A DNA stretch of 46,494 nucleotides from the NCBI GenBank assembly GCA_036273715.1, contig DASUHB010000064.1, positions 1 through 46,494 on the forward strand. Reading direction: 5' to 3'. This DNA is from Gemmatimonadaceae bacterium. GTDB taxonomy: Bacteria > Gemmatimonadota > Gemmatimonadetes > Gemmatimonadales > Gemmatimonadaceae. The notes under the pieces are model-generated. The model was not told the origin of the DNA and did not search any database. It was given only the letters and a program-made list of their open reading frames with translations. Below, in pieces: positions 1,920 to 41,324 of this stretch. Made by a program: the position numbers and the translations under genes. Each line of letters starts with the position of its first letter. Positions within the stretch are counted from its first letter, which is position 1.

Positions 1920-2066
1920 TAGTAAAGGACTGTCGATGCCCCGGGTCGCGTCACGGGGTCGCCCGCTCTCTGTTGAGGTATTCGGGGACTCCGGGAAACG
2001 TGGCCGCAAAGAAAATGGAACGAACGATAGAAAATGGATCGTGAGGCAGCTTGGGCGGGCGGAGTA

Positions 2067-2195
2067 CTACGCTCATGAAGACGCTGACAAAGCAGGACAC
2101 AACGGACAAAGCACCGAAAAAAAATCAACGCCTTGGTGATGCTGGTGTCGTGTCCGCTGTGTTCGTTCTGTGTCCGCGTCTTCATGAACGGAGAT
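2067..2195. repeat. Palindromic intergenic repeat, copy A
   Basis: The left end reads ACGCTCATGAAGACGCTGAC and the right end is its near-inverse, GTCCGCGTCTTCATGAACGG. Between them GGACA/TGTCC units repeat in opposite orientations on the two arms, around a centre that includes AACGCCTTG. The same ends and the same centre word occur in copy B (5602-5810), and the right end recurs in copy C (14530-14625). The arms have diverged more than in copy B. No open reading frame of note lies inside, so it looks like a non-coding mobile or structural repeat (MITE- or REP-like) rather than a gene. Confidence 0.7.
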
Positions 2196-5535: not shown

Positions 5536-5601
5536 CCGAGCCGGCGTTTGGAGGGGCCAGTCCTATACTATAGATGGTTGGCCTGTGTGAGGCGGCTGGA
5601 A

Positions 5602-5810
5602 GGTCTCTACGCTCATGAAGACGCGGACAAAGCACGGACAGAACGGACAAAGCACGGGTCGCTCGGCTGCACAGGAACAACGCCTTGTTTTTTTGTGAAA
5701 CAGAACAGTTTGTTCGTTCTCTCACAACAGAGCCATCCTGTTCAGCCGAGCGATCCGTGCTTTGTCCGTTCCGTCCGTGCTTTGTCCGCGTCTTCATGAG
5801 CGTAGAGACC
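5602..5810. repeat. Long palindromic intergenic repeat, copy B (best copy)
   Basis: The arms 5602-5676 and 5736-5810 are inverse complements with about three mismatches over 75 bp, beginning GGTCTCTACGCTCATGAAGA and ending with the inverse. The 59-nt centre contains AACGCCTTG and weaker internal complementarity (TTGTGAAACAGAAC against GTTCTCTCACAA). If transcribed it would make a very long hairpin. The ends match copies A and C. It lies between the deacylase stop and the beta-lactamase-like gene, so it could also limit read-through. Such near-perfect arms imply recent formation or active maintenance. Confidence 0.85.
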
Positions 5811-5899
5811 CGCACGCGAGCCTCCCGCTCTTCCGCGTATTGACACCGATGCTATTACAAGGAGTGACCTCTCTGATTGATGTCGCGCGGTGCCGGGCG

Positions 5900-14205: not shown

Positions 14206-14529
14206 GCGCGCGCGTGCCGTTACAAGGTGCGTGCGCATCGTCGCCGGGAGCGCTTTCGCCTTCGTGTAATCGGCCGGCTGCAATGAACGCCGCACCGAGG
14301 CCAGGTCTCATTTTCGACTCTTCGCGGATTTGTGCGGGTGGTGCCGGGAAGTGCAGCCTCGGCCCTGGTCCGGCGGTGGTGAAAGGCCGCGCCGGTCAAC
14401 ACGCGGCCTCCCATGCAGGCGGGCCCGCTCTGCCTGGAGAGATCTACGACAAAGGTTCAAAAGGATAAAAAAAGGATGTAAGAGATGGGGTCGGTGCATA
14501 TCCAACCGCAACGACGCGTCGTTAAGCGT

Positions 14530-14625
14530 GGAGCAGGACACAACGGGCACAGCCCGAATAACAATCAAAGACGTTGTTTTGTCCTGTCGTGTCCGCGCCG
14601 TGTCCGCGTCTTCATGAGCGTATCA
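14530..14625. repeat. Palindromic intergenic repeat, copy C (one end degraded)
   Basis: The right end GTCCGCGTCTTCATGAGCGT is the same as in copy B. The interior has GGACACAACGGGCAC on the left and TGTCGTGTCCGCG on the right, around AACAATCAAAGACGTTGTT. The left terminal ATGAAGACGC word is missing, so the copy looks truncated or diverged. Confidence 0.65.
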
Positions 14626-29434: not shown

Positions 29435-30298
29435 TCAGGCGTGGAAATCCGCGCGCAACTGCCGCACCGTCCCGGGCGTCCGCGGCCCGAAGTACAACAG
29501 CTCCTGCTCCGTGATCCGGTAGATGCGCAACGACTTTCCGGCCGGCGTCAACGCGATGCCGGGCATCGTCGCGAACTTGGCCGCGCTCCCGTACCGGTCG
29601 AACCCCAGGTCGGTCGCCACGATGATGTCGGGCGCGATCCTGGCGATCAGCTCCGGCGTTAGGCGCATCATCCCGCCCACCGAGTCCACCGCGTTCTCGC
29701 CGCCCGCCCATCGGATCATGTCGTCAGCGGGTCCGCCCGCCTTTAGCGCCAGGTAATCGTTCGCGATCTGCCCGAAATGAATGATCAGCACGCGCGGCTT
29801 CTCCCTGCCGGCGTATTGCGCCGTGTCCTTCCAGATGTCCTGCATCCCGGCCTTCCACTGCGCGAGCACGCTGTCCGCCGCCTGCCGCCGGCCGAACCTG
29901 TCGCCTAACTGAACCAGCAGCTGCTGCGCGCTGTCGAGCGTGTTGCCGGGCGGCATCACGGCGATCGGGATGCCGACCTGCTTCAACTGCTCCAGCACGG
30001 CGCTCGGCCCAACGTTGCCGTCGGTCAGAAACAACGTCGGCTTCATCGAGATGATGCCCTCCGCGCTCAACGCCCGGTGATACCCCACCGTAGGAAGCTT
30101 CTTGATCTGCGGCGGATAAATCGACGTGAGATCCACCGCCACCAGGTGCTGCTCCGCACCGATGGCGTACATGAACTCGTTGATTTGCTTGGAGACGCAG
30201 ACCACGCGATCCGTGCCCGAGGCCTGTGTCGACTTCTCTACGAATCGCCCGCACGCGCTGACGCCAATCATCACGCAAAGCACCAAAAGACCGGACAC
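29435..30298 (-). CDS. hmuT: Haem-binding lipoprotein HmuT (periplasmic)
   Basis: About 287 residues. A short hydrophobic leader ends in a lipobox (IGVSAC), then the binding protein begins at DRVVCVSKQINEFMYAIG. The stretches LPTVGYHRALSAEGIISMKP and YRITEQELLYFGPRTPGTV match the HmuT group; a haem-ligand Tyr or His is likely, for example in VGYHRAL. It delivers haem to HmuUV. Start: GTG 30298, which gives a short leader; the frame is open to 30397 but that part lies in repeat copy D. No TonB-dependent haem receptor lies adjacent. Confidence 0.8.
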   Translation of the reverse strand: MSGLLVLCVMIGVSACGRFVEKSTQASGTDRVVCVSKQINEFMYAIGAEQHLVAVDLTSIYPPQIKKLPTVGYHRALSAEGIISMKPTLFLTDGNVGPSAVLEQLKQVGIPIAVMPPGNTLDSAQQLLVQLGDRFGRRQAADSVLAQWKAGMQDIWKDTAQYAGREKPRVLIIHFGQIANDYLALKAGGPADDMIRWAGGENAVDSVGGMMRLTPELIARIAPDIIVATDLGFDRYGSAAKFATMPGIALTPAGKSLRIYRITEQELLYFGPRTPGTVRQLRADFHA

Positions 30299-30490
30299 GG
30301 AGGGACAAAGCCGGACACGACCGGCCGATGCTGGCGCACCGGAGCATCCACGTCGATTGCCTGGCTGAGATGCGGGCGTTCGTGGAAACAAGTACATGGA
30401 CTTTCATCCGCTTGCGATGAGGTTTGTTCGCGAGCCGAGCCGTCCGGCAGTGTCCGGCTTGTCCGGATCCTGTCCGCCTTTTACGCGGGC
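30275..30490. repeat. Diverged palindromic repeat, copy D, overlapping the hmuT 5' end
   Basis: GCAAAGCACCAAAAGACCGG and GGACACGGAGGGACAAAGCC on the left are mirrored by GTCCGGCAGTGTCCGGCTTG and GGATCCTGTCCGCCTTTTAC on the right. The arms share the TGTCC/GGACA units and the AAAGCA word of copies A and B, but the ATGAAGACGC terminus is lost. The left arm encodes the first residues of HmuT, so insertion or conversion here may have reset the start of that gene. Confidence 0.5.
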
Positions 30491-41263: not shown

Positions 41264-41324
41264 TTCGGCGGCATCACAGAGTTTTTGCCTACAAAGTAGG
41301 CAAAAACTCTCTGATGCCGCCGAA
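41264..41324. repeat. 29-bp near-perfect palindrome with two flanking hairpins
   Basis: Arms 41264-41292 (TTCGGCGGCATCACAGAG, then TTTTTGCCTAC) and 41296-41324 pair at 28 of 29 positions around an AAA loop. Two smaller hairpins flank it: GGCGCGGCGC/GCGCCGCGCC (41224-41247) and GGCGCCGGCGG/CCGCCGACGCC (41335-41360, one mismatch). All three lie between the divergent cupin and tatA genes, so a normal terminator role does not fit. Confidence 0.8.

Follow-up and report, generated by a model that had tools for sequence, protein, structure and literature searches.

An amidohydrolase gene and a beta-lactamase-fold gene enclose a spacer at positions 5546-5833 (no strand) of the window, by which we mean the whole analysed stretch of 46,494 nucleotides, contig 64 of a Gemmatimonadota MAG (4.34 Mb, 81 contigs, 98.7% completeness). 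The spacer holds a palindrome, copy B, for which an inverted-repeat search gave a left arm at 5602-5676 on the plus strand and a right arm at 5736-5810 on the minus strand, separated by a 59-nt loop (5677-5735, no strand) that contains AACGCCTTG. With 75 nt each and 96% complementarity, the arms bear out the near-perfect 75-bp palindrome that the preliminary description had proposed for 5602-5810. The RNA fold of copy B reaches -163.8 kcal/mol (z -22.9 versus 200 shuffles), and an equal amount of coding sequence, screened at the same cut-off, contained no inverted repeat; the palindrome is far beyond chance.

The motif ATGAAGACGCGGAC, exact or with one mismatch, occurs five times in the window, always within copies A, B and C, and up to two mismatches give six matches against 0.78 expected, a number reached by no shuffle. 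Copy A is a member of the family, as proposed, and is longer than had been claimed: its hairpin core, common to the family (2067-2193, plus strand; inverted-repeat search and multi-copy alignment), lies within a full-length type I MITE (types are defined below) of ~342 bp at about 1977-2318 on the plus strand, which aligns with the elements at L042, L067 and L064 over 1981-2310. This element is old and lacks a clear target duplication; it is bounded by a degenerate left terminal inverted repeat (GGTATTCGGGGACTCCGGGAAAC, 1977-1999, plus strand) and a right one that reads GGTTATACCGGGAATTTCCGGGAA on the minus strand (2295-2318).

Copy C (14530-14625, plus strand) could be retained as a member in part. 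What it retains of a type I element is the right half; the rest of the palindrome belongs to a different hairpin family, a remnant of which is joined to it at 14473-14532 on the plus strand (GGATGTAAGAGATGGGGTCGGTGC...ACGACGCGTCGTTAAGCGTGG). The sequence of this remnant forms a free-standing hairpin in the genome of a sister MAG (L100:4499-4600), and related hairpins lie at L079:4146 and L047:3747. Copy C is a chimera of a type I right half and another hairpin. The second family, with the sequence GGATGCAAGAGATGGGGTCGGCGCA and 39-nt arms, is itself dispersed (L079:4146-4259, L047:3747-3860, L100:4499-4600).

Copy D, the fourth proposed member, did not hold up: it has only the GGACA/TGTCC units in common with the others and lacks the ATGAAGACGCGGAC end. 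This GGACA hairpin (30275-30490, arms 30308-30327 and 30441-30460) is best treated as a separate family, and TGTCCGGCTTTGTCCGCC units like those of copy D also occur in the sister genome (L100:3580-3680, L135). A further hairpin of the window, at 41264-41324 (29 nt, 97% complementary, 3-nt loop), is apparently unrelated to the family of copy B.

A dispersed intergenic family

Across the host genome, BLAST recovered 144 pieces of the family, and CATGAAGACGCGGACA with up to three mismatches matched 64+71 times, compared with 14+19 times for the reversed control. From BLAST and pattern searches, with copies examined locus by locus, we collated ~50 elements spread over many contigs, more than the four initially claimed; such counts are approximate, as they derive from BLAST and pattern lists. 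All 50 placed elements are intergenic and none lies within a predicted gene. Their gene context, counted on genes predicted by a codon-usage script, is tandem in 26, divergent in 12 and convergent in 12 cases, roughly as intergenic length predicts.

Beyond the host, ~30 BLAST matches to the family were found in the sister MAG (DAHUXU01, 'Gemmatimonadetes bacterium isolate clean1656'), which is ~95% identical to the host over common loci and gave the only match to an exact 20-mer among GTDB genomes. A third congener contributed one weak match and three other congeners none, and in 179 genomes of Gemmatimonadaceae no match lay outside the host's genus, that is, outside the host, its sister and, weakly, the third congener. 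Between genomes, it is the presence of elements that differs, not their orientation. A phage origin was considered and rejected, the exact 20-mer being without a match in IMG/VR.

Element types and their insertion sites

Most copies contain a core of ~127 bp, a hairpin of about 130 bp that runs from CTACGCTCATGAAGACGCGGACA to TGTCCGCGTCTTCATGAGCGTAG with arms of GGACA units and that is usually the central part of a longer element, with longer conserved flanks around it. Type I copies are ~340 bp long and bounded by GGTTCTTCGGGAATTTCCGGGAA in inverted orientation; this terminal repeat, with up to three mismatches, was found at 13 genomic termini and at none in the control. Type III copies comprise ~230 bp between GGTACCGGTTCAGTTTGGGGC and GGTAGAGGTACAGTTTGGTCCGGTACC, with the end pattern GGTA..GGT.CAGTTTGG. 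The two types differ in their ends but agree over much of the interior, also outside the core. Type III ends enclose other interiors as well: a hairpin of GGAT units at L179 and, at L175, an element of 187 bp that lacks the core. Type II copies carry neither end type and stop near (G)GCATCTACGCT or GGTCTCTACGCT. Copy B is of this type, a bare core without type I or type III transposon ends, and its flanks (...GGCTGGAA / CGCACGCG) have no target-site duplication in common. Neither end type and no clear duplication were likewise found at L045, L048-L050, L054-L056, L065, L066, L069, L073 and L077.

Orthologous sites gathered from five congeners give a view of the insertions themselves. At L059, an element of ~333 bp has CGAAAAAA on each side, and the site is empty in the sister (GACGAACGAAAAAAAGGGAG) and in other congeners; in the sister genome, the element at L089 has CAAAAAAAA on each side. 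Type I target duplications at these two loci thus measure 8-9 bp. The element at L042 sits in the T8 tract of a terminator, and in three relatives this tract is uninterrupted and the site empty. Type III target duplications measure 8 bp: AGCGGCGT at L082, present as a single copy in the sister's empty allele, ACGTGTGC at L072 and GAGCGAGC at L175, with near-duplications that agree at 7/8 positions at L063 and L083. Insertions often lie in the T-tract of a terminator, and an A/T run of at least 5 was found within 12 bp of 17/33 type I-like (ISL3-type) ends, compared with 1.4% of intergenic 12-mers. The duplications and the empty sites in relatives show clean insertion and mark types I and III as products of transposition.

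The arms of type I and type III elements are 0.72-0.86 alike within a copy and mostly 0.93-0.98 alike between copies: these elements were copied from masters. At L075, a type I remnant has a type III element next to it or inside it; the sister has the remnant without the type III element. At L062, L073, L046 and L074, the sister's allele is not an empty site but holds another palindrome, complete or partial.

Source of the ends and competing explanations

Type I ends, searched across genomes of Gemmatimonadaceae, had matches in six genera. In one genome of another genus (G140), two such ends 1341 bp apart (L153) flank an intact ISL3 transposase gene, whose product matches PF01610 (DDE_Tnp_ISL3, E 3e-63), HTH_Tnp_ISL3 and Zn_ribbon_ISL3, and in another genome (G153) one type I end adjoins the start of another, shorter ISL3 transposase. 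The type I ends of the family match those of L153/L154. Genome G106, from a different genus, has its own short elements with type I ends in A/T tracts; one of these (L166, 1235-1523), 289 bp long, sits in an A/T tract and encloses another interior between the same ISL3-type ends.

The host draft assembly contains no intact ISL3 gene, only a 3' fragment (C10:3599-3838), so that present-day activity of type I is unproven; an intact ISL3 gene in the same genome is, for a relic MITE, not a strict requirement. The fragment adjoins a Y1 transposase fragment with an internal stop (L110/L143, host contig 10, 3599-4042), and the region is an insertion-sequence graveyard. An autonomous partner for type III was sought by a pattern search in 60 relatives, which returned ends only in the host and its sister, with no pair far enough apart to hold a gene.

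We consider it probable, at roughly 0.8, that the family combines type I MITEs with ISL3 ends and type III elements which carry the same passenger hairpin, and that copy B is a derived core. Type I elements, with their GGTTCTTCGGGAATTTCCGGGAA repeats, would owe their mobility, present or past, to an ISL3-family DDE transposase acting in trans, which makes 8-9 bp duplications and prefers A/T tracts, for example the U-tract in rho-independent terminators. Elements of type III, with the same hairpin between other ends and with 8-bp duplications, would be moved by another transposase. The GGACA-unit hairpin would be passenger DNA that became common to both types via recombination.

Alternatively, the GGACA hairpin could itself be the mobile module, which spreads bare, makes no duplications and is captured by unrelated ends of ISL3 and GGTACC type. 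We regard this as unlikely; if true, one hairpin would travel in several MITE families and replace other palindromes at the same intergenic spots. It is very unlikely that the palindromes are REP/BIME-like and spread by a RAYT (Y1) transposase via a single-stranded hairpin. Such a process would fit the bare type II hairpins, which are only intergenic, lack duplications and include head-to-head pairs (e.g. L069), and the host genome does have one Y1_Tnp match. However, this match covers a fragment of only 72 positions, contains a stop and has no family arm near it, the arms of 40-75 nt are longer than REPs, and types I and III have DDE-type ends with 8-9 bp duplications. To our knowledge, Y1 transposition makes no target duplications of that length.

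The suggestion that selection maintains the palindromes as a structured RNA, a riboswitch or a terminator appears highly improbable. The fold is very stable, the GGACA units are conserved and some copies lie close behind a gene end, but compensatory changes were seen in 0/28 pairs among 30 aligned copies, the window has no Rfam match above the gathering score, no gene context is preferred, and presence varies even between genomes that are ~95% identical. Least probable of all is that the palindromes, copy B above all, are artefacts of MAG assembly: copy B is a palindrome of unusual perfection, and the sister MAG did not yield its flanks, yet an independent MAG has filled orthologous sites (L071/L086, L063/L087, L049/L088, L050/L096, L054/L092, L079/L093), the duplications agree with the empty alleles, and the ORF of 706 aa missing at copy B (see below) is also missing from the whole assembly.

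A dispersed, non-coding and MITE-like family is therefore what remains of the preliminary description, carried by ~50 copies, terminal inverted repeats, target-site duplications (types I and III, not copy B) and empty sites in relatives (L059, L042, L082). The elements are short (a core of 130 bp, 230-340 bp when full-length) and multicopy, all lie in spacers and, as stated there, none has a transposase inside; a transposase whose ends match those of type I came from another genus. The other two readings offered, a REP-like element and a structured RNA, fell away, the former also for want of an intact RAYT gene flanked by repeats in the host genome.

The copy B locus and relation to known elements

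At the point occupied in the host by the spacer with copy B, congeners have an extra ~3.3 kb with an ORF of 706 aa. In G002 and G004, the amidohydrolase and beta-lactamase-fold genes are ~3.4-3.9 kb apart with this ORF between them, and in G003 the same ORF is cut by a contig end (loci of the three congeners: L144, L145, L146). The ORF is absent from the whole host assembly and was not found in the sister; a scanned part of 255 aa had no Pfam match. The flanks of copy B were not recovered in the sister MAG, and copy B is known from one assembly. As the segment and its ORF are missing beside it, copy B appears, barring a misjoin in the assembly, to sit at a gene-loss junction, the loss having possibly occurred by recombination or deletion at the palindrome.

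Copy B also departs from the arm pattern of types I and III. Its arms are 97% identical to each other over 58 nt, compared with 84% to the best other copy, and the same reversed pattern was seen at L055 (0.95 within, 0.57 at best to other copies). Arms closer within than between copies are expected from arm-to-arm correction, and template switching between the arms of copy B during replication is the probable cause of their near-identity. In our reading, copy B is a core that was re-palindromised and stayed behind at the junction of a deletion, and it may mark the loss of a gene.

Type I terminal repeats resemble those of ISL3-family insertion sequences in that they begin with GG, have 8-9 bp duplications and enclose an ISL3 transposase in a relative; ISPpu12a, a member of that family, has 24-bp repeats and an 8-bp duplication (PMC4133298). 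Unlike these insertion sequences, type I elements are 340 bp long, with a GGACA hairpin interior, no transposase and no transposase remnant seen. TIMEs are Tn3-derived mosaic non-autonomous elements with Tn3 ends and 5-6 bp duplications, usually in one copy per genome (PMC4133298). The family described here is likewise mosaic and non-autonomous, but it numbers ~50 copies and surrounds one hairpin with two kinds of ends. With REP/BIME and RAYT systems (PMC2817692), it has intergenic palindromes and paired arrangements in common, whereas types I and III differ by their target duplications and DDE-type ends, and no intact RAYT was found.

Correia, ERIC, Chunjie, QMITE and BOX/RUP/SPRITE elements are intergenic hairpin MITEs with REP-looking truncated copies and nested insertions (PMC10969869). 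The present family is like them in being intergenic, nested and rich in hairpins, with truncated copies that look like REPs. Compared by description, those elements have other hosts, ends and targets.

We came across no previous report of MITEs from Gemmatimonadota in the literature searched. The family is a new MITE set of a well-known kind, with a hairpin between at least two sets of ends as its twist, and to most readers it will be an ordinary genome parasite. The set nevertheless offers insertions that are polymorphic, their sites being empty in several relatives, and evidence for a preference of ISL3-type ends for A/T tracts, those of terminators among them. It also provides a case of one hairpin inside elements with different ends, an exchange that merits a second look.
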